This document shows positions 30,871 through 40,778 of a stretch of 64,000 bases of DNA, piece by piece. Made by a program: the position numbers and the translations under genes. Under the pieces are notes generated by a model that was given only the letters and a program-made list of their open reading frames with translations, was not told the origin of the DNA and ran no database searches. This stretch comes from an uncultured Clostridia bacterium (GTDB lineage: Bacteria > Bacillota > Clostridia > Oscillospirales > Acutalibacteraceae). Numbering within the stretch: position 1 is the first letter of the stretch; each line of letters opens with the position of its first letter. Location: positions 1-64,000 of the forward strand of contig CALWIZ010000003.1 in the NCBI GenBank assembly GCA_944380885.1, written 5' to 3'.

Positions 30871-31155
30871 TTACTGCTCAACAGCGTAAATGCTGACCTG
30901 CTTGCGGTCTCTTCCGACACGCTCAAACTTTACCTTGCCGTCGATAAGAGCGAACAGTGTATCGTCTGAACCGCGGCCGACATTATTGCCGGCGTGAATG
31001 TGAGTTCCTCTCTGGCGTACCAGAATGTTGCCAGCCAGAACAAACTGACCGTCCGCGCGTTTTACTCCGAGACGTTTCGCCTCGCTGTCACGGCCGTTCT
31101 TTGTTGAACCCATACCTTTTTTATGAGCGAATAACTGAATGTTAATCTTTAACAT
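30871..31155 (-). CDS. rpmA: 50S ribosomal protein L27 with cleavable N-terminus
   Basis: A 94-residue L27. The N-terminal [14 protein letters not shown] carries the Firmicutes extension that Prp removes, by family precedent after the Phe (before AHKKG), exposing residues that reach the peptidyl transferase centre. The rest ([37 protein letters not shown]) is typical. ATG 31155, 8 nt after GGAGG, overlaps the end of prp by 14 nt. An in-frame GTG at 31164 lies within the SD. Confidence 0.96.
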
Positions 31156-31474
31156 GCTTTGCACCTCCGTATATCCTTATGTTACTGCCGTACTGACCGG
31201 ACAACTGCTCAAGATGGAGCTTAAGCCCCTCCAAAACCTTTACCGCTGCGTCCGACGGATTTATTACCCTGAATTTCATCACGGCGTCGTCAATTTCGGC
31301 CTCCGCCTCGTCACCTATTATTTCAGTAACAGTGTTTGCCGCCATATATGCCGCCGAAGAAACTGCCGCGCAGACGATTTTACCGGTCATATCGTCACTG
31401 TCCGACGAACAGTGACCGCTGATTTCAAAGCCCGAAAGCCTTTTTCCGTCAGCTGAAAATTTTACCCTTGTCAC
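31142..31474 (-). CDS. prp: ribosomal-processing cysteine protease Prp
   Basis: A 110-residue YsxB/Prp protease with the catalytic pair His21 (SGHCSS) and the later Cys in [10 protein letters not shown] (Cys35), followed by the conserved helix [13 protein letters not shown]. It cleaves the N-terminal extension of L27, whose gene overlaps its 3' end here. The gene lies between rplU and rpmA, the usual place in Firmicutes. Confidence 0.95.
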
Positions 31475-31476
31475 GG

Positions 31477-31782
31477 TTAGCCGATCTCGTTGATCTGAAC
31501 CTTGGTATAAGGCTGTCTGTGGCCCATTTTGCGTGAACTGCTCTTCTTGGGCTTATAGGTAAAGACCGTTATCTTCTTACCCTTTCCGTTTTTAAGAACG
31601 GTGCCCTTTACAAAAGCGTCCTTCACATAGGGCTTGCCTACCTTCAGGGTCTTGTCGCTTACGGCAACAACCTTGTCGAAGGTGATCTCCTCGTCAACCT
31701 CGGCGTTAAGCTTCTCAACATAAATAACGTCGCCGCTCTCAACACGGTACTGCTTTCCGCCTGTTTCAATAATTGCGTACAT
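31477..31782 (-). CDS. rplU: 50S ribosomal protein L21
   Basis: A 101-residue L21 with [18 protein letters not shown] and the basic C-terminal [18 protein letters not shown]. First gene of the rplU-prp-rpmA-DUF2007-DUF2007-obgE-mrnC operon. It starts 17 nt after a leader structure, with CAGGTG SD. Confidence 0.96.
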
Positions 31783-32039: not shown

Positions 32040-32492
32040 TTACGACTCCATCTGCTTGCCGAGGAAAGAAGCGGCGACGGTGGCGAGCTTTATATCACTG
32101 TCGCTCGCGGTCTCACCGGCAGCCGAAGTAAGCACAACCGCTCCGCTGACATCGCCCTCTGACATTATGGGGGCGGCAACCGCGATTTTCTGGTCTATAC
32201 CCTCAATCGCCGGCAGCGCCTTTCCGCTCGGATAAACTTCTACTCTCCTGCCCTCCATAATATCTTCGACAGTTTGTGTGACTCTTCTCTCAAGCACTTC
32301 TTTTTTTGATATGCCAGACGCCGCTATGCAGTGGTCACGGTCGCAAATAAGAACCGTAAGATCGGTCGCCGCGTTCAGCGCCTCGGCGTACTGAGAGGCG
32401 AACGACGAAAGCTCACCTATCGGTGAATACTTCTTGAATATTACCTCTCCTCCGGAATTTGTGTATATTTCAAGCGGGTCGCCCTCTCTGAT
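32040..32492 (-). other. spoVT: 3' part of spoVT (codons ~28 to end) inside the fusion gene
   Basis: 150 codons match the length of SpoVT after its residue 27 (family length ~178). Conserved stretches are EGDPLEIYT, IFKKYSPIGEL, VLICDRDHCIAASGISKK and the C-terminal GDVSGAVVL. SpoVT is a forespore regulator in spore formers; alone this piece lacks half of the swapped-hairpin DNA-binding domain. The junction near 32492 is the likely recombination site. Confidence 0.85.
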
Positions 32493-34175
32493 AACATTGA
32501 CAGTAAAGACCTTGTCCGCGCGGTTCGCGGACTTTTGGGCAACTGCGATATCCTTACTGCCCGACTTAAAATTTACGGTATGCTCCGTATCCTCAAGCGA
32601 CAAAAGCCCGTCCACATCGGATTTGAGCTTTACATTCAAATGATCCTCAAACACCGTGATTTTCTCAACAATCAAACCGATGTCGCGCTTGTCAAGCTTT
32701 TCTTTTCTCAGGACTCCGTCAAAGACCTCGATAACCGTTTTCGCCTTTCGGTTGGCGGTAATCATATTGTTGCGCATATTGTTGATGTCGCCGAACTGCT
32801 TTTCGAGCATTTCAATGCGGGTGAGCAGCTCTTCCTCCATTTCGTTGTAAAGCGCCGCCTTAGTTCGGCTTTTGGCGTCGGACAGCCCTGCGTCAATCAG
32901 CATTTTTTCTTTATAAAGCGCTTTGAGCTTTGCCTTGGTCTCGTTAAGCTGCGTTTCAATGCTTTCCACCGTCGCGCCGAGCTGTTCCTCCCGCTCTGGC
33001 TGCTCATCAATCGTCTTTTGCAGCTCGTCAATCATACCCTTGCAGTTATCGCGCACGCGGAGGATAAATTCCTTGAGCAGCCTGTCAAGCACATCCACGC
33101 GGATATGGTGCGAGGTACAGCCCTTTAAACCGCGCTTGTGGTATGTACCGCAGGTGTAGGCAGGCGACAGTTCGGGGCGCGACATAGAGAACATCGGGCT
33201 GCCGCAGTCGCCGCAGAACATAAAGCCCGAATAGTCGGTAGCATACTTCTTTTCGCCGCGATAATTGCCCTTTGAGCGCAGCTCAAGCTGCTCTTTTGTA
33301 TAGGCAAAGGTCTTGCTGTCCACAATCGGCTCATGCGCGTTTTCAATCACAATATTTTCCTCATCACCGAGCTTTACATCCTTGCCGTTAATGCCCTTGC
33401 GCGTATACTTGCGCTGACGGAGCGTGCCGATGTAAAAATCGTTTTTGAGAATTGTCTGCACTGTGATAATGCTCCATTCGCTGCGCGCAGTAAGCTTGGT
33501 CGCCTTGCCCTCGGCTTCCTTTTGGGCAATCTCGTTTGCCCTCGGTGTCGGCACGCCGCTGTCGGTCAGGTGATTGGCGATTTTTTTATATCCCCAACCG
33601 AGATTGTAAAGCCTGAAAACCTCGCGCACAACCTCCGCCGCAGGCGGATCGATTTCGTAGGTCATTTCCTTGGTGTTAGTGATGCGGTAGCCGTAGGGCA
33701 CGGCGCATATCCACTGCCCGTTTTTCTGTCGGTTGTCTATCATCTGCTTGATTTTTTTCGAGGTGTCGGTGACCGGCATTTCATTCATCAGAAATTTAAA
33801 CTGAATAAGCATCCAGTCATCACGGGTAGGGTAGTCAATATTGTCGCCTATCGAGATAATGCGGATACCCGCGTCGCGCAGCGTCTCAAGCTCCAAAAGC
33901 CCTAAGCTGTTGCGGCGGGAGAAACGGGAGAAATCCTTGACGATTAAGATGCGCACATCGCCGTTTATCAGCTCCTTACGCATTTTCTGATAGTTTTCTC
34001 GCTGAGAAAAGGTGTAGCCGCTGCGGTCTCTGTCCTCGTATATGATCAGCTCCGCGTCGGGAAATTCTTTCGCTACAAAATCGCGGATGATTCGTTTTTG
34101 GTTTTCGATACTGGTGTTCTCGTGGCTGTCTTCCTGCAAATCCACCGAAATTCGGGCGTATCCGTCAATTTTCAA
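32040..34175 (-). CDS. large serine recombinase fused in frame to SpoVT residues ~28-178
   Basis: A 711-residue protein. Residues 1-~150 are a resolvase-type catalytic domain with nucleophile Ser10 in YARIS. The recombinase/PF07508 region and a zinc ribbon (CGDCGSPM ... CGTYHKRGLKGC) follow, with a coiled coil (~375-500). From residue 562 the chain reads IREGDPLEIYT..GGEVIFKKYSP, which is SpoVT from inside its AbrB DNA-binding domain to its normal C-terminus (GAF-like domain, ASFLGKQMES). The SpoVT start is missing. This is what an integrative element inserted in spoVT would leave. The start is TTG at 34175 behind TTGACT-17-TACAAT. Excision would rebuild spoVT, as for the sigK skin element. 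Confidence 0.9.
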   Translation of the reverse strand: MKIDGYARISVDLQEDSHENTSIENQKRIIRDFVAKEFPDAELIIYEDRDRSGYTFSQRENYQKMRKELINGDVRILIVKDFSRFSRRNSLGLLELETLRDAGIRIISIGDNIDYPTRDDWMLIQFKFLMNEMPVTDTSKKIKQMIDNRQKNGQWICAVPYGYRITNTKEMTYEIDPPAAEVVREVFRLYNLGWGYKKIANHLTDSGVPTPRANEIAQKEAEGKATKLTARSEWSIITVQTILKNDFYIGTLRQRKYTRKGINGKDVKLGDEENIVIENAHEPIVDSKTFAYTKEQLELRSKGNYRGEKKYATDYSGFMFCGDCGSPMFSMSRPELSPAYTCGTYHKRGLKGCTSHHIRVDVLDRLLKEFILRVRDNCKGMIDELQKTIDEQPEREEQLGATVESIETQLNETKAKLKALYKEKMLIDAGLSDAKSRTKAALYNEMEEELLTRIEMLEKQFGDINNMRNNMITANRKAKTVIEVFDGVLRKEKLDKRDIGLIVEKITVFEDHLNVKLKSDVDGLLSLEDTEHTVNFKSGSKDIAVAQKSANRADKVFTVNVIREGDPLEIYTNSGGEVIFKKYSPIGELSSFASQYAEALNAATDLTVLICDRDHCIAASGISKKEVLERRVTQTVEDIMEGRRVEVYPSGKALPAIEGIDQKIAVAAPIMSEGDVSGAVVLTSAAGETASDSDIKLATVAASFLGKQMES

Positions 34176-34210: not shown

Positions 34211-34239
34211 ATTGTAATACAATCGAAGCAAAAAGTCAA
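34211..34239 (-). promoter_or_regulatory. promoter of the recombinase gene
   Basis: TTGACT (34239-34234), 17-nt spacer, TACAAT (34216-34211) on the minus strand, about 36 nt before the TTG start. Confidence 0.7.
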
Positions 34240-34287
34240 TACGTATCAAGAGGAATCATGTTGCCAAGTCATTTATGTTCGCTACTA

Positions 34288-34316
34288 TTGACAAAACAGC
34301 ATTAAGTGTTTATAAT
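34288..34316 (+). promoter_or_regulatory. promoter of hipBA
   Basis: TTGACA (34288-34293), 17-nt spacer, TATAAT (34311-34316), 24 nt before the hipB start. Confidence 0.85.
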
Positions 34317-34340
34317 AGAAAACGCAAGAGGTGGATGCAA

Positions 34341-34646
34341 ATGAAAAATGCTGCGTATAATATTATGCCTGATACGGAAAATATTCTTAAAACAATGGGC
34401 GAGCAAATAAAAATGGCACGGCTCAGAAGAAAGCTGTCCGCAACATTGGTTTCCGAACGCGCCGGAGTCAGCCGCTCGACGCTGTGGAAGGTGGAAAACG
34501 GCAATCCGTCGGTTGCCGTCGGTATTTATGCCGCCGTTTTGCACGCACTCAATAATATGGATAAGGATCTCTTAAAAATCGCAGGCGACGACGAACTCGG
34601 CAGAAAGCTGCAGGATATGGATTTAATGGGCAAAAATAAAAGGTAA
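34341..34646 (+). CDS. hipB: HipB-like XRE antitoxin/regulator
   Basis: A 101-residue protein with a helix-turn-helix at ~20-75 (GEQIKMARLRRKLSATLVSE, GVSRSTLWKVENGNPSVAVG). In HipBA modules the antitoxin dimer binds the promoter and neutralises HipA. ATG 34341 follows AGAGGTG by 7 nt; an ATG two codons earlier is too close to the SD. It is 11 nt upstream of hipA. Confidence 0.9.
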   Translation: MKNAAYNIMPDTENILKTMGEQIKMARLRRKLSATLVSERAGVSRSTLWKVENGNPSVAVGIYAAVLHALNNMDKDLLKIAGDDELGRKLQDMDLMGKNKR

Positions 34647-34657
34647 GGAGGCAGCAT

Positions 34658-35902
34658 ATGAAAACGATTTATGTATTTGATGGTTTTTCTGGCGACGCGC
34701 CTGTACACATTGGCAATTTATATGTCGATACCATTAAAGGCGGCGAAAGCTATTCCTTTGAATATACAGAAGAATGGTTAAAACAGAATAACGGAAACGC
34801 AAACATTGACCCCGATTTGTTTCCCTTTGTCGGAAGACAGTTTCCGAACGGAAACAGCATTTTCGGCGTCTTTTCCGACGCTTCGCCCGACCGCTGGGGA
34901 CGGGTTTTGATGAATAAAAAAGAGCGCAAGCTTGCCGACCGCGAAAAGCGCAAGCCGAGAAAGCTTCTTGAAAGCGATTACCTTTTGGGCGTTTACGATG
35001 AGACCCGAATGGGCGGCATACGCTTTAAAACAGACCTCGACGGAGAGTTTTTATCCTGCGACAGGGAAACCGCCGCACCGCCATGGACAACGCTGCGAAC
35101 ATTGGAGGAGGCGTCCCGTCAGTTTGAAAACGATGAATCGCTGAACGAGAAATGGCTGAATCAGTTGCTAAGACCCGGGTCGTCGCTCGGCGGCGCAAGA
35201 CCGAAAGCAACGGTAACCGACACAGATGGGCAGCTATGGATTGCGAAATTCCCGTCTAAAAACGATGAAAACAATACCGGTGCATGGGAAAAGGTCGCGT
35301 CCGATTTGGCAAAGCTTTGCGGACTGAATGCTCCGGAGTCTAGGATTGAGAAGTTTTCAAAATACGGCAGCACATTTCTTGTAAAGCGTTTCGACCGCAA
35401 CAAAACAAAAAGAATCCACTTTGCCTCAGCTATGACCCTGCTGGGGAAGACGGACGGTGCTTCCGCCGCCGACGGAACAAGCTATCTGGACATTGCGTCG
35501 TTCATCAAATCAGACGGCAGCAATCCAAAAGACGATTTGGTTGAGCTGTGGAAAAGAATCGTATTCAATATGGCAGTCTCAAACACGGACGACCATTTGC
35601 GGAATCACGCCTTTATATACTGCAAAAGCGGATGGATGCTCTCTCCCCTGTATGATGTGAACCCCGTGCCTTACGGTGACGAGCTTTCTTTAAATGTCAA
35701 CGAAACCGATAATATGATTTCGGTGCCGCTTGCAATAGAAACCGCATTCCGGTTCGGCATTGACAGCCAAAAAGCAAAAGAAATTGCCGACGGCATACTT
35801 GATACCGTTAGGTGCAATTGGGAGGCATTAGCGGCAAAATACGGGATCTCGCGCGCGGACATTGAGGATATGCGCCCGGCATTTTCCGAGTGCTATAAAT
35901 AA
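34658..35902 (+). CDS. hipA: HipA family serine/threonine kinase toxin
   Basis: A 414-residue HipA kinase. Known HipA phosphorylates glutamyl-tRNA synthetase and causes dormancy; targets vary in other family members. It shows the N-terminal HipA domain (GNSIFGVFSDASPDRWGR), the P-loop GSSLGGARPK (174-183) that carries the autophosphorylated serine, the catalytic loop SNTDDHLRNH (308-317) and the metal-binding YDVNP (332-336). All key residues are intact. GGAGG SD. The pair lies directly next to the recombinase gene, divergent from it, and likely stabilises the inserted element. Confidence 0.92.
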   Translation: MKTIYVFDGFSGDAPVHIGNLYVDTIKGGESYSFEYTEEWLKQNNGNANIDPDLFPFVGRQFPNGNSIFGVFSDASPDRWGRVLMNKKERKLADREKRKPRKLLESDYLLGVYDETRMGGIRFKTDLDGEFLSCDRETAAPPWTTLRTLEEASRQFENDESLNEKWLNQLLRPGSSLGGARPKATVTDTDGQLWIAKFPSKNDENNTGAWEKVASDLAKLCGLNAPESRIEKFSKYGSTFLVKRFDRNKTKRIHFASAMTLLGKTDGASAADGTSYLDIASFIKSDGSNPKDDLVELWKRIVFNMAVSNTDDHLRNHAFIYCKSGWMLSPLYDVNPVPYGDELSLNVNETDNMISVPLAIETAFRFGIDSQKAKEIADGILDTVRCNWEALAAKYGISRADIEDMRPAFSECYK

Positions 35903-36051: not shown

Positions 36052-36279
36052 TTAAGTCTTTGCACGCGGTGCCGGATTATTGAGATTGTAGGCAAGCAGC
36101 TCTTTTGTATTTTCCAAAAGGTCGCCGTAGCCCGATTCATAAACGCAGACGAAGATCTTTTTTTTTCTGCAATCGGCAATAAACTGCTTTAATTTCTGCT
36201 GCTTTGCCTCGTCCCTTTGGTCGGCGTGGGAGCACCACACCTTTGCCAGCTTCAGTTCGTTATCCATTACAAATTCCAT
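36052..36279 (-). CDS. hypothetical mobile-element protein
   Basis: A 75-residue charged protein (KLAKVWCSHADQRDEAKQQ, IADCRKKKIFVCVYESGYGD). No membrane segment and no domain I can name; it resembles small accessory proteins carried with relaxase regions of clostridial elements. GGAG lies 10 nt before ATG. It may be intact, but its neighbours are decayed. Confidence 0.5.
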   Translation of the reverse strand: MEFVMDNELKLAKVWCSHADQRDEAKQQKLKQFIADCRKKKIFVCVYESGYGDLLENTKELLAYNLNNPAPRAKT

Positions 36280-37120: not shown

Positions 37121-37381
37121 CTACCGTAACAGGTCGAGCTTATATAGGCTGCTTGTATTTGTGCCGTCCTTTCGGCGGCGCTGTTCCTTTTTCAGAAGTC
37201 CGGTTTCTTCGAGATTTCTTACTGCAATATCTACCGTTTTAATATCCATATGACATTCTTTTGATATAAGCCGACGCGACGGAAAACATACGCCGTTTAT
37301 ATCGCTGTGTTTTACAAGACAGCAGTAGACGGTGAAATCCCGCGGCTTTAATTTGAAATCAAATATACGGTTTGAAACCAT
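37121..37381 (-). CDS. helix-turn-helix protein (HTH_36-like)
   Basis: An 86-residue winged-helix protein (LKPRDFTVYCCLVKHSDING, FPSRRLISKECHMDIKTVD, LLKKEQRRRKDGTNTSSLYKL), like the N-terminal domain of plasmid or element replication initiators. Full-length relatives are longer, so it could be an N-terminal remnant. SD weak. The 200 bp upstream to the sigma gene hold nothing recognisable. Confidence 0.65.
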   Translation of the reverse strand: MVSNRIFDFKLKPRDFTVYCCLVKHSDINGVCFPSRRLISKECHMDIKTVDIAVRNLEETGLLKKEQRRRKDGTNTSSLYKLDLLR

Positions 37382-37585
37382 AAAAAATTACCGCTTTTAT
37401 TTTGCGGCGCAATCATCCGGCATCAGCTCCCTTTATATAAAAAATAAGAGAGATAAATCTCGGTACGCATCAGACACATTTAACGGGTGCTATCTATGCT
37501 CCGAAATTTATCCCCTACTTATTAGGACAGTTAAAAGAGGTTTGTAAACCGGAAATGTAAAACTTTTTCTAAAAAATACGGAGAC

Positions 37586-37981
37586 CTATGTTTCCATAAG
37601 TCTCCGCATCCGGGAAAGCAGTTTTTTCAGCCGCTTTGATACCGCCATTTTACTGATGCCGAATTCTTCGCCGATTTGTTCCATAGTGCGTTCCTCAAAA
37701 AAGTAACGCCGAATCAATATCCGTTCGTCATCTGTAAGGCAGCAGGTAATTTTTTGCAGTTTTTCAAAGCAGAGGTTTTTAAGCACCGCATCAAAGGTAG
37801 GGTCACTAAAAGCCGTATTATGAGCAGTTTGCAGCACTGTTTCGGAATCACTCTTACTCGTGTGCCGGCGGTCGCTCCGACCTTCTGCCGCCTGCCTTTT
37901 TCTGTCGGCTTCTAAAAAATCTGCAACCTCTTTTGAAACTGAAATTTCACTTTCGCCGTATTTAACAATGGTATTCCCCAA
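37586..37981 (-). CDS. small sigma-70-like factor of a mobile element
   Basis: A 131-residue protein with a sigma region 4 helix-turn-helix at the C-terminus (LTDDERILIRRYFFEERTMEQ, EEFGISKMAVSKRLKKLL) and a variable N-terminal half without a clear region 2. Proteins of this type are frequent on Tn916- and Tn4371-like elements. The start is TTG 37981, 7 nt after AAAGGA. It probably controls element genes. Confidence 0.75.
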   Translation of the reverse strand: MGNTIVKYGESEISVSKEVADFLEADRKRQAAEGRSDRRHTSKSDSETVLQTAHNTAFSDPTFDAVLKNLCFEKLQKITCCLTDDERILIRRYFFEERTMEQIGEEFGISKMAVSKRLKKLLSRMRRLMET

Positions 37982-38350: not shown

Positions 38351-38545
38351 ATGAAAGGACGAATTTTAACAGAAAAGCTTATCTCAGAATTTTCCTGCTA
38401 TCTTAAAAGCGAAGAAAAAAGCCAAAACACTTTAGAAAAATATTTGCGGGATGTAAATGCTTTTGCCGTTTTTTTTAACGGCACACAGGTAACGAAAGAA
38501 AAGGTCATCACCTACAAAAACAAATTATTGAGCGAGAATTATTTG
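38351..38545 (+). pseudogene. truncated tyrosine recombinase (N-terminal SAM-like domain only)
   Basis: Starting with GGAGG and ATG 38351, about 65 codons encode the arm/core-binding SAM-like domain of XerC/D-type integrases (KLISEFSCYLKSEEKSQNTL, EKYLRDVNAFAVFF, ITYKNKLLSENYL). The match ends near 38545. The frame runs on to 38659, but that part is unrelated and enters the 3' end of the GH36 gene on the other strand. The catalytic domain with the Arg/His/Tyr residues is gone. The break marks the junction between the island and the glycan locus. Confidence 0.75.
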
Positions 38546-38597
38546 TCAAAAACAAAAACCGGTGTACAGCGTATGGTTGTAAGCCTGTCGAGCACAT

Positions 38598-40778
38598 TTA
38601 TAATACCTTTTCTATATGTATTACAGCGCTTTCTCCTGTACCCTGAGCTATATCGGTAAAAACTATCCCAGCATTCATCAGCATTGCGCCGGAAAATACT
38701 TTGCCCGTTTCTGTATCTTTATAATAAGCCTCGGGTTCAAGTCCGCGAAGCCTTATTATCAAATGCTGATGACATTCCCACCGCATTGTGACAAGTGTAA
38801 CCATTGCCTGTGATTTGTCGGACGACACAAACTGCCATGCTGCTCTGTACGGATTATCAAACGGAGAAATCAGCCTGTATAGATCTCCTCTGTTAATAAG
38901 TTCATAATCCTTGTGATATTCCTCTATTTGCCGGCAGATAATATTTTTTTCCTCATCACTCAGCCTGGTCGGATCAAGTTCAAGCCCAAAGGTGCCCCAC
39001 TTTGCAACCCTGCATTTAGTTTCATAGCCCGTCCTGTTTGTTGCCGAAACATGAGCCCCCATAGCCGAGGCAGGATAGCACATTGAAGTCCCGAACTGGA
39101 TATAAAGCCTTTCTATAGGGTCGGTATTGTCGCTCGCCCAAATTTGCGGCGAATAACAAAGCATAGCCGGGTCAAAGCGTCCGCCACCGCCCGAGCAGTT
39201 CTCAAAAAGAATATTCGGAAAGCTTGTTACAAGCCGGTTCATCAGGTCGTACGTTCCAAGCACGAACCGATGAAAAAACTCCTTTTTTCTTTCCGGAGGC
39301 AAGAGCGCAGAGTCGGCATCGGTAATATTTCTGTTGAAATCCCATTTCAGATATTCGATATTATTTTGTGACAGTACCGAATACATCTGTTTCCATATGT
39401 TATCTCTTACATCCTCGCGTGAAATATCTATCACATACTGATTTCTTCCGAGCATAGGCTCTCTGCCTGACGCTCTTACACACCAATCAGGGTGAGCGCG
39501 GAACAAATCGGAATCGGGTGAAATCATTTCCGGTTCAAACCAAATACCGAACTTCAGCCCTTCGGCATTGATATGCTCTATAAGCTTATTAAGTCCGCCC
39601 GGCAGTTTATTTTTGTTTACATACCAGTCGCCGAGCGAGGAAGTATCGTCATCTCTGTGACCGAACCAGCCGTCGTCCATAACAAGCAGTTCCACGCCCA
39701 ATTTTTTGGCTTCCCTTGCAAAGCTTATCAACTTATCTTCATCAAAATCAAAATAGGCGGCTTCCCAACTGTTAATCAACAGAGGTCTTTTTTCGGTTTT
39801 ATACCGCCCCCGTATTAAATTATTGTTATAAAATCTGTGCAGCTTACGGCTAATTTCTCCTATGCCGCCCGCAGTAAACACCATTACTGCCTCAGGTGCA
39901 TAAAAGCTTTCGCCGCTGTTGAGCAGCCAGGAGAATGTCTGTGGTTCGATTCCCATAATAAACCTTGTGGTGCAGTTGAAATCACATTCCGCAAGCGCCG
40001 AAAAATTGCCGGAATATACAAGGCTGAAGCCGTAAACATCACCGTGTTCCTCATTTGAGCCCCTTTGTGCCAGCGCGACGAATGGATTTTGAGTATTGCT
40101 TGAAGACCCGCGTCTGCTCTCGACCCCCTGAACTCCGTGGGCGAGTCTGCGCCGTTCTATATTTCTTTCCTTTGCGTGACAGCCGTAAAGAGTGATCATA
40201 TCGTAATCCATATCGGGCAAATCGAGACACATACTCATCACTCTCTCAATTCTCATATTATCTGAAGAAACATTTTTTACCTTTATATGTCTTGTTATAA
40301 CATCATATTCGGGAAAAACCGTATAATAAAGCGTGACCTCTGCTCCCGTAACAAAATCCTCCGTATAAATCTCAAGTGTCTGTGCCTCGCTCTCATTATT
40401 AACATAAGTTGACGGCATTCCCTGTATTTCTTTTTTTCCGTTATATATTTTATACCCCGTATAGCGTATATCGGTAATACTGTCGCCGTTTTTATTTATG
40501 ATTTCAAGTGCGGAAATCCTGAAATCTCCTGCTCCGTGTGTGCCGTATTCAATAGGCGCGGTATCCGGGGAAAAGCCGTTCTCACCTATCACCGGATTAA
40601 CGGGACTGAAGGAAGCATTTATCGTTCGTTTTTCTCTCTCCGGCACATAACTCTCAGGAATATATGCTCCGTAATACAGATTTAAAAGATAGTTTTCATC
40701 ATAAACAGCTACTATATAGCTTGAATTTTTGGTATCAAGCTTAAAGGTTTTGGTTTTTTCGTCATAAAATACCGGCAT
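38598..40778 (-). CDS. alpha-galactosidase, GH36
   Basis: A 726-residue GH36 enzyme that removes terminal alpha-galactose from oligosaccharides. An N-terminal beta-supersandwich (~1-320) is followed by the TIM barrel with WEAAYFDFDE, VMDDGWFGHRDDD, KFGIWFEPEM, the nucleophile Asp480 in LKWDFNR and the acid/base Asp550 in WASDNTD. No signal peptide, so it acts in the cytoplasm on imported sugars. I chose ATG 40778, just after GGAGG; an upstream TTG frame lacks an SD. It is the last gene of the glycan locus. Confidence 0.95.
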   Translation of the reverse strand: MPVFYDEKTKTFKLDTKNSSYIVAVYDENYLLNLYYGAYIPESYVPEREKRTINASFSPVNPVIGENGFSPDTAPIEYGTHGAGDFRISALEIINKNGDSITDIRYTGYKIYNGKKEIQGMPSTYVNNESEAQTLEIYTEDFVTGAEVTLYYTVFPEYDVITRHIKVKNVSSDNMRIERVMSMCLDLPDMDYDMITLYGCHAKERNIERRRLAHGVQGVESRRGSSSNTQNPFVALAQRGSNEEHGDVYGFSLVYSGNFSALAECDFNCTTRFIMGIEPQTFSWLLNSGESFYAPEAVMVFTAGGIGEISRKLHRFYNNNLIRGRYKTEKRPLLINSWEAAYFDFDEDKLISFAREAKKLGVELLVMDDGWFGHRDDDTSSLGDWYVNKNKLPGGLNKLIEHINAEGLKFGIWFEPEMISPDSDLFRAHPDWCVRASGREPMLGRNQYVIDISREDVRDNIWKQMYSVLSQNNIEYLKWDFNRNITDADSALLPPERKKEFFHRFVLGTYDLMNRLVTSFPNILFENCSGGGGRFDPAMLCYSPQIWASDNTDPIERLYIQFGTSMCYPASAMGAHVSATNRTGYETKCRVAKWGTFGLELDPTRLSDEEKNIICRQIEEYHKDYELINRGDLYRLISPFDNPYRAAWQFVSSDKSQAMVTLVTMRWECHQHLIIRLRGLEPEAYYKDTETGKVFSGAMLMNAGIVFTDIAQGTGESAVIHIEKVL

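Follow-up and report, generated by a model that had tools for sequence, protein, structure and literature searches.

A mobile serine recombinase element splits the forespore regulator gene spoVT in an uncultured Clostridia bacterium and is probably excised for sporulation

The window, by which we mean the whole 64,000-nucleotide stretch analysed (C3:1-64000, where C3 is the contig; coordinates above 64000 lie outside the window), carries a serine recombinase gene that runs in frame into the back part of the sporulation gene spoVT. The features of the locus are the following.

30871-31782, minus strand: host flank rplU-ysxB-rpmA, syntenic with the intact spoVT locus of the sister genome G031
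32040-34175, minus strand: fused open reading frame of 711 aa, residues 1-563 a serine recombinase, then SpoVT from the att core to its natural end
32040-32486, minus strand: 3' part of spoVT (sensor domain), its protein 99% identical to the intact SpoVT of G031
32474-32486, minus strand: attL copy of the att core GAGGGCGACCCGC; the attR copy, at C3:72408-72420, is outside the window
32488-32502, minus strand: left attP arm TGTCAATGTTATCAG, within the recombinase reading frame, where it encodes VNVI
34211-34239, minus strand: putative vegetative (sigma-A type) recombinase promoter, TTGACT-17-TACAAT, read by eye from the sequence
34275-35902, plus strand: Xre-type HTH and HipA_C genes (Pfam), divergent from the recombinase
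36052-36279, minus strand: 75-aa protein, kept near the recombinase in six of ten complete elements
37121-37981, minus strand: HTH_36 gene and sigma-70 region 4 gene (Pfam)
38351-38659, plus strand: truncated N-terminal fragment of a tyrosine integrase (Pfam), at the sugar-cluster junction
38597-64000, on to C3:71970, minus strand: sugar-use cluster with GH36 alpha-galactosidase, alpha-L-rhamnosidase, ABC transporters and DUF5696
C3:72400-72507, minus strand: 5' half of spoVT, 8.4 kb past the right edge of the window, followed by the tail TLTTFEKFRIAVEKLTTRIGK and a stop
Outside the window, directly after the attR core: right attP arm CTGATAACATTGACA, whose reading frame encodes TLT

An earlier note on this DNA had read the tail of the fused frame as SpoVT up to its natural end, which is borne out at these coordinates by a Pfam SpoVT_C match at residues 588-710 (E 3e-36) and by alignment with Bacillus subtilis SpoVT (PDB 2w1t), where residues 562-710 correspond to chain positions 28-177, that is, SpoVT minus its first 27 residues. 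The N-terminal part has the features of a large serine recombinase, namely a Resolvase catalytic domain (5-155), a Recombinase domain (179-299), a zinc ribbon (Zn_ribbon_recom, 316-371) and a coiled coil, seen as long helices at 379-490 in the AlphaFold model. Foldseek matched this model to the SPbeta, phiC31 and Bxb1 integrases and to SpoVT (2w1t and 2w1r); the nearest full-length solved recombinase, SprA of SPbeta, is about 18% identical by structural alignment. A GAF-like module at 585-710 is folded separately with a pLDDT of about 85-91, the junction between recombinase and SpoVT falls within a low-confidence linker at 527-581, and the overall confidence of the model is modest (pTM 0.41).

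Searching this genome with full-length SpoVT returned three matches: besides the fusion itself, these were a 5' piece of 36 residues and, on contig C33, a short paralogue that is AbrB-like. The note had proposed site-specific insertion into spoVT, with a 5' part to be found rightward on the minus strand and a direct repeat near 32490, and both were located. The 5' half lies at C3:72400-72507, and the 13-bp core GAGGGCGACCCGC is common to the two spoVT halves, its copies being 39,934 bp apart. When the halves are joined in silico, they give a 177-aa SpoVT without a stop, so that a split sporulation gene has its frame restored by precise removal of the intervening DNA. Joining of the outer ends gives a circle on which the recombinase runs through attP to a 591-aa protein. 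The rebuilt attP, TGTCAATGTTATCAG-AGAGGGCGACCCGCCG-CTGATAACATTGACA, has GA at its centre and 15-bp perfect inverted arms, and its length of ~50 bp, inverted arms and short core common to attB are those of the attP of a large serine recombinase. Between its arms, 18 of the 24 symmetric positions agree, where random 24-mer pairs average 6 and reach at least 17 at a frequency of 2e-5. Since the left arm encodes VNVI inside the recombinase frame, the suggestion that the recombinase carries its own attachment site in frame also holds. An intact spoVT elsewhere, combined with an identically built fusion in relatives, or the want of a same-strand 5' half had been named as points that would speak against the proposal; the SpoVT search of this genome found no second intact spoVT, and the 5' half is on the expected strand. 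Because the rejoined gene is complete, the arms match at 18/24 and at least 34 genomes show the same arrangement, a chance origin of the junction is excluded.

Comparison of the joined sites points to GA, with which the codon for the conserved Asp of the SpoVT segment REGDPLEI opens, as the crossover dinucleotide. This codon begins with GA in 83 of the 84 distinct SpoVT N-terminal sequences collected, and GA opens both Asp and Glu codons, which would make the target tolerant of codon drift. One fusion, in L126 (Ruminococcaceae RUG10626), reads SSGAPLEI rather than GDPLEI, which suggests a member with another core dinucleotide.

In the sister genome G031, spoVT is intact and lies beside rplU-ysxB-rpmA-obgE, with a 99% identical protein; the N-terminal spoVT DNA there is identical to the split 5' half at 98 of 99 positions, and the flanks of the two genomes are syntenic over 32 kb at 89-90% identity. 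To judge from this alignment, the G031 spoVT locus is an unoccupied integration site. Most of the 40-kb segment inserted here is taken up by the 33-kb sugar cluster (38597-C3:71970, comprising window positions 38597-64000 and L004 1-7970), which is 95.4% identical to a block of G031 located 36-70 kb downstream of the intact spoVT on the same contig, against only 89-90% for the flank. The cluster is bounded by the truncated tyrosine-integrase fragment on one side and by a short truncated element gene on the other. Its placement may reflect cargo acquired by transfer between lineages, a rearrangement or a join made during assembly. Whichever applies, the att sites and the fusion are unaffected, and the element length of 39,934 bp may not be the original one. 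Among those element open reading frames that were scanned with Pfam, no phage structural or packaging genes were recognised, and no relaxase was recognised in the window's own copy of the element. Within the cluster, three adjacent proteins (L004 2483-3223, 3245-5560 and 5652-6692) resemble one another in a sequence of the endonuclease/exonuclease/phosphatase type and have in common a motif akin to NVCSHGD.PPG; one of the three also has a dockerin.

Recombinase-SpoVT fusions were found in at least 34 Clostridia genomes, a count made up of 29 from a scan of named genomes (including L138, which is G065 of the genus scan), four more from the genus scan and the present genome; among the carriers are two isolates, Pseudoflavonifractor phocaeensis An858 with an element of 15,962 bp and Ruminococcus flavefaciens ND2009 with one of 46,110 bp. 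Of 391 class-level genomes, 6 have the full fusion. An intact spoVT was not detected among the 34 carriers. A spoVT 5' half followed by an element-encoded tail is present in 25 of them and was not found in the other nine, many of which are fragmented assemblies, yet one (G065) is rated 99% complete. Where both halves lie on one contig (ten cases), they are in direct orientation 12.9-46.1 kb apart, and rejoining at the GAC codon gives a SpoVT of 177-180 aa in 10/10. In all ten, 17-20 of the 24 symmetric positions agree between the attP arms, compared with 5-11 for attB, attL and attR. The arms of R. flavefaciens are unlike those of other members and best match their own partner, which implies that the two ends change together despite being 46 kb apart. 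In the spoVT fusions examined, the recombinases are 47-83% identical to the one described here, the frame is open across every junction and the sensor half reads through to its natural end.

The recombinases and their SpoVT partners have discordant histories. Within several host groups, recombinase dS is 0-0.5 where SpoVT_C dS exceeds 1.2 or is saturated; L136 and L145 show zero differences over their aligned recombinase codons, and G112 and G122 a recombinase synonymous distance of 0.03, with SpoVT_C saturated in both pairs. This discord implies that the element jumps between distant hosts and that the individual interruptions are young, and the comparison thus indicates horizontal spread independent of host phylogeny, with spoVT as the normal site of the family. 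Two secondary sites were also seen. In L115, whose recombinase is 96% identical to the one in the window, the element lies in another gene at GAGGGCGACAGGGCGGAAAT; in L128 it lies at GAGGGCGAGACGGC in a GspE/PilB-like gene, a family named from its sequence alone. Each genome has an intact spoVT, each site is a GA-bearing pseudo-core, and the recombinase is fused there to two unrelated proteins; the intact spoVT of L115 has GCG in place of the Asp codon (GA to GC). A relaxase gene lies upstream of the recombinase in G096, G110, G112, G122, G065 and L141, accompanied in some by a NikA-like protein. The family would most fairly be named an integrative element of mobilizable type that has the conserved spoVT Asp codon as its specific target, the relaxase being known from several relatives only. 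That it is a horizontally moving family rather than a fixed skin-like relic was a point that the earlier note did not foresee, and so were the forespore role of the target and the large share of the inserted segment taken by a sugar cluster placed differently in G031. Plasmid relatives of the recombinase were all below 60% identity, at about 25-30% among the matches listed. A recombinase beside an N-terminal half with tail in G086 was dismissed as the driver, as it belongs to a different family (35% identity).

With attP situated within the recombinase gene, integration gives the protein the SpoVT sensor domain as its C-terminal part, and the circular form would end in an element-encoded tail; from the sequence it follows that the recombinase would exist in two forms according to its integration state. 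A comparable arrangement is known in mycobacteriophage BPs, where attP within a gene alters the C-terminus of the protein (PMC4557955); integration there truncates the repressor, whereas here a host sensor domain is appended to the recombinase itself. The element tail past the right arm has an FxxA...L..R pattern and a pN of 0.18 against a pS of 0.48 (25 pairs), and is evidently under protein-level constraint.

By gene content, the host has a SigG-like sigma factor, SpoIVA and Spo0A, and among the 37 genomes checked SpoIVA scored over the cut-off in 34 and Spo0A was present in 31. In Clostridioides difficile, spoVT is under sigma-F and sigma-G control in the forespore and is needed for heat-resistant spores (PMC3789822), and in Bacillus cereus it is essential for completing sporulation (PMC5061766). 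A mobile serine recombinase element occupies the sole spoVT copy found in this genome, and we consider it probable that it is excised precisely for sporulation. Integration at the GA core has left the spoVT promoter and the AbrB-type DNA-binding half at one end, as seen in the sequence, and the SpoVT sensor half in frame behind the recombinase at the other. The recombinase and a putative directionality factor would then cut the element out precisely, restoring SpoVT in those cells that must sporulate, after which the element might reintegrate or be lost. We infer excision during sporulation as the most likely way in which the hosts keep sporulating. In the C. difficile skin element the recombinase is constitutive and a mother-cell directionality factor limits excision (PMC5025042); the plausible vegetative-type promoter TTGACT-17-TACAAT would fit such a pairing of constitutive recombinase and regulated factor.

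The developmental setting of the target tells against this explanation, as do the nine of 34 genomes that yielded no 5' half, including G065. The genes sigK, gerE and yabG are mother-cell genes, and the mother cell dies, hence excision there is free of cost to the lineage. Excision in the forespore, where SpoVT acts, would change the chromosome that is passed on, and the element must leave that chromosome, leave before division or block sporulation. We weighed a selfish and effectively one-way insertion, in which the spoVT codon is a mere landing site, SpoVT is lost, sporulation is poor or absent, and rare excision serves transfer. Horizontal and apparently recent insertions, the relaxase of several members, the confinement of the family to a minority of genomes (6/391 class-level genomes with the full fusion) and the lack of any excised form in the collections searched would all fit such an insertion. 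Neither an excised circle nor a restored spoVT allele was found in the assemblies and contig collections searched, and a scan of viral contigs with the attP pattern gave no circular forms. Carriers of the recombinase include three viral contigs and a pair of faecal records that are classed as phages, with three of the five reading into SpoVT and two ending at the contig end; the two faecal records, L229 (MT836658.1) and L228 (MT839487.1), are human and from Mexico, and one of them has the recombinase fused to SpoVT. A one-way insertion would not, however, account for SpoIVA and Spo0A in nearly all hosts, for a sensor half that, in the fusions examined, runs uninterrupted to its natural end or for precise restorability in 10/10, and we regard it as unlikely. 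As the insertions look young at each host, an intact sensor half is no proof of continued use, and for the same reason (dS) we dropped an argument from long-term purifying selection on the interrupted sensor half.

An addition to precise excision for sporulation, rather than an alternative to it, is that the integrated recombinase-SpoVT fusion is itself functional and that its sensor, working as an inbuilt directionality or ligand module, favours excision in the forespore. The frame is open in every spoVT fusion examined, with recombinases 47-83% identical to this one, the model shows the sensor as a folded module that a flexible linker attaches, and artificial fusions of a serine integrase to its directionality factor (RDF) favour attL x attR recombination, a switch of directionality (PMC5737554). 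A site-specific junction nonetheless fixes the frame, which makes selection on the fusion unnecessary, and at the secondary sites the recombinase is fused to two unrelated proteins as well. We hold a functional, state-sensing fusion to be improbable, and would give as little credence to its fuller form, in which the SpoVT domain would be a host-supplied directionality or sensor module through which the recombinase signals its own integration state, tying excision to forespore development while the AbrB half with its tail acted as a decoy regulator. A stable gene fusion without mobility, or an assembly artefact, might be suspected from a window drawn from a single fragmented assembly (49 contigs) and from the different position of the sugar cluster in the sister genome, but is very hard to credit given the identical junction in at least 34 assemblies, including the isolates An858 and ND2009, and the discordant recombinase and spoVT distances.

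Several sporulation genes are known to carry intervening elements, namely sigK, spsM, spoVFB, gerE and yabG (PMC10747680, PMC5595907). Like skin in sigK (B. subtilis SpoIVCA; C. difficile CD1231/CD1234), the present element is a serine-recombinase element that splits a sporulation regulator, which excision rebuilds; unlike skin, which is prophage-like and sits in a mother-cell gene, it targets the forespore regulator spoVT, its recombinase frame runs into the target, and its family is horizontally mobile. The gin element in gerE (B. cereus ATCC10987; GirC/GirX) is likewise a non-phage element with a serine integrase that interrupts a small sporulation regulator, and its cargo includes a restriction system; it differs in having three recombinases and a mother-cell target, and the passages on it that were consulted do not mention a recombinase-target fusion. 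SPbeta in spsM (SprA/SprB), vfbin in spoVFB and yin in yabG are similarly serine-recombinase prophages or prophage-like elements in sporulation genes, but have other targets and the gene content of prophages. Several relatives in the present family share with serine-integrase elements of the integrative and mobilizable kind a relaxase (MobA/VirD2-like), in some cases a NikA-like protein, beside the serine recombinase, and a variable cargo; no relaxase was recognised in the window's own copy. In the literature searched, outside which most subscription journals fall, we found nothing on spoVT with a serine recombinase or on spoVT as an integration site, a weak negative on which the spoVT target, the forespore setting, the widespread mobilizable-type family and the recombinase-target fusion would be new.

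Other spoVT 5' regions show further variation. In genomes of the same genus, the promoter, spoVT N-terminal codons and element tail occur in one or two extra copies ~1-2.5 kb upstream of an intact spoVT, usually separated by a single unrelated gene: L187 (G066; 8835, 10160 and 11499), L188 (G075), L189 (G077), L044 (G002), L045 (G025) and L195 (G086). These copies may have been left behind by past insertions or may form an integron-like relay of 5' ends; a cassette model of the integron type was set aside, as intact and tail contexts have only weakly similar upstream genes (35-42% identity). In G083 (L193, L194), a similar 208-aa gene, the promoter and the spoVT N-terminus (99/99 identical) stand on two contigs, one copy with the tail and the other in an intact spoVT. 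The N-terminal copy in G033 (L046 11680-11769), 3 kb upstream of an intact spoVT, has a zinc-finger-like tail in place of the element tail. The ribosome-binding site of spoVT lies within a strong hairpin that also overlaps a sigma-F/G-like promoter motif (for example in G007 C1, G077 and G088), with z of -4.8 to -7.1 in three of the four folded; the hairpin is weaker in the present genome (z -2.6).

The family offers many natural serine recombinases with matched attP and attB sites, two natural secondary sites and an example of a recombinase whose own C-terminus is rewritten by integration, and the trade-off between persistence of the element and spore formation by the host would be directly testable in cultured gut species.
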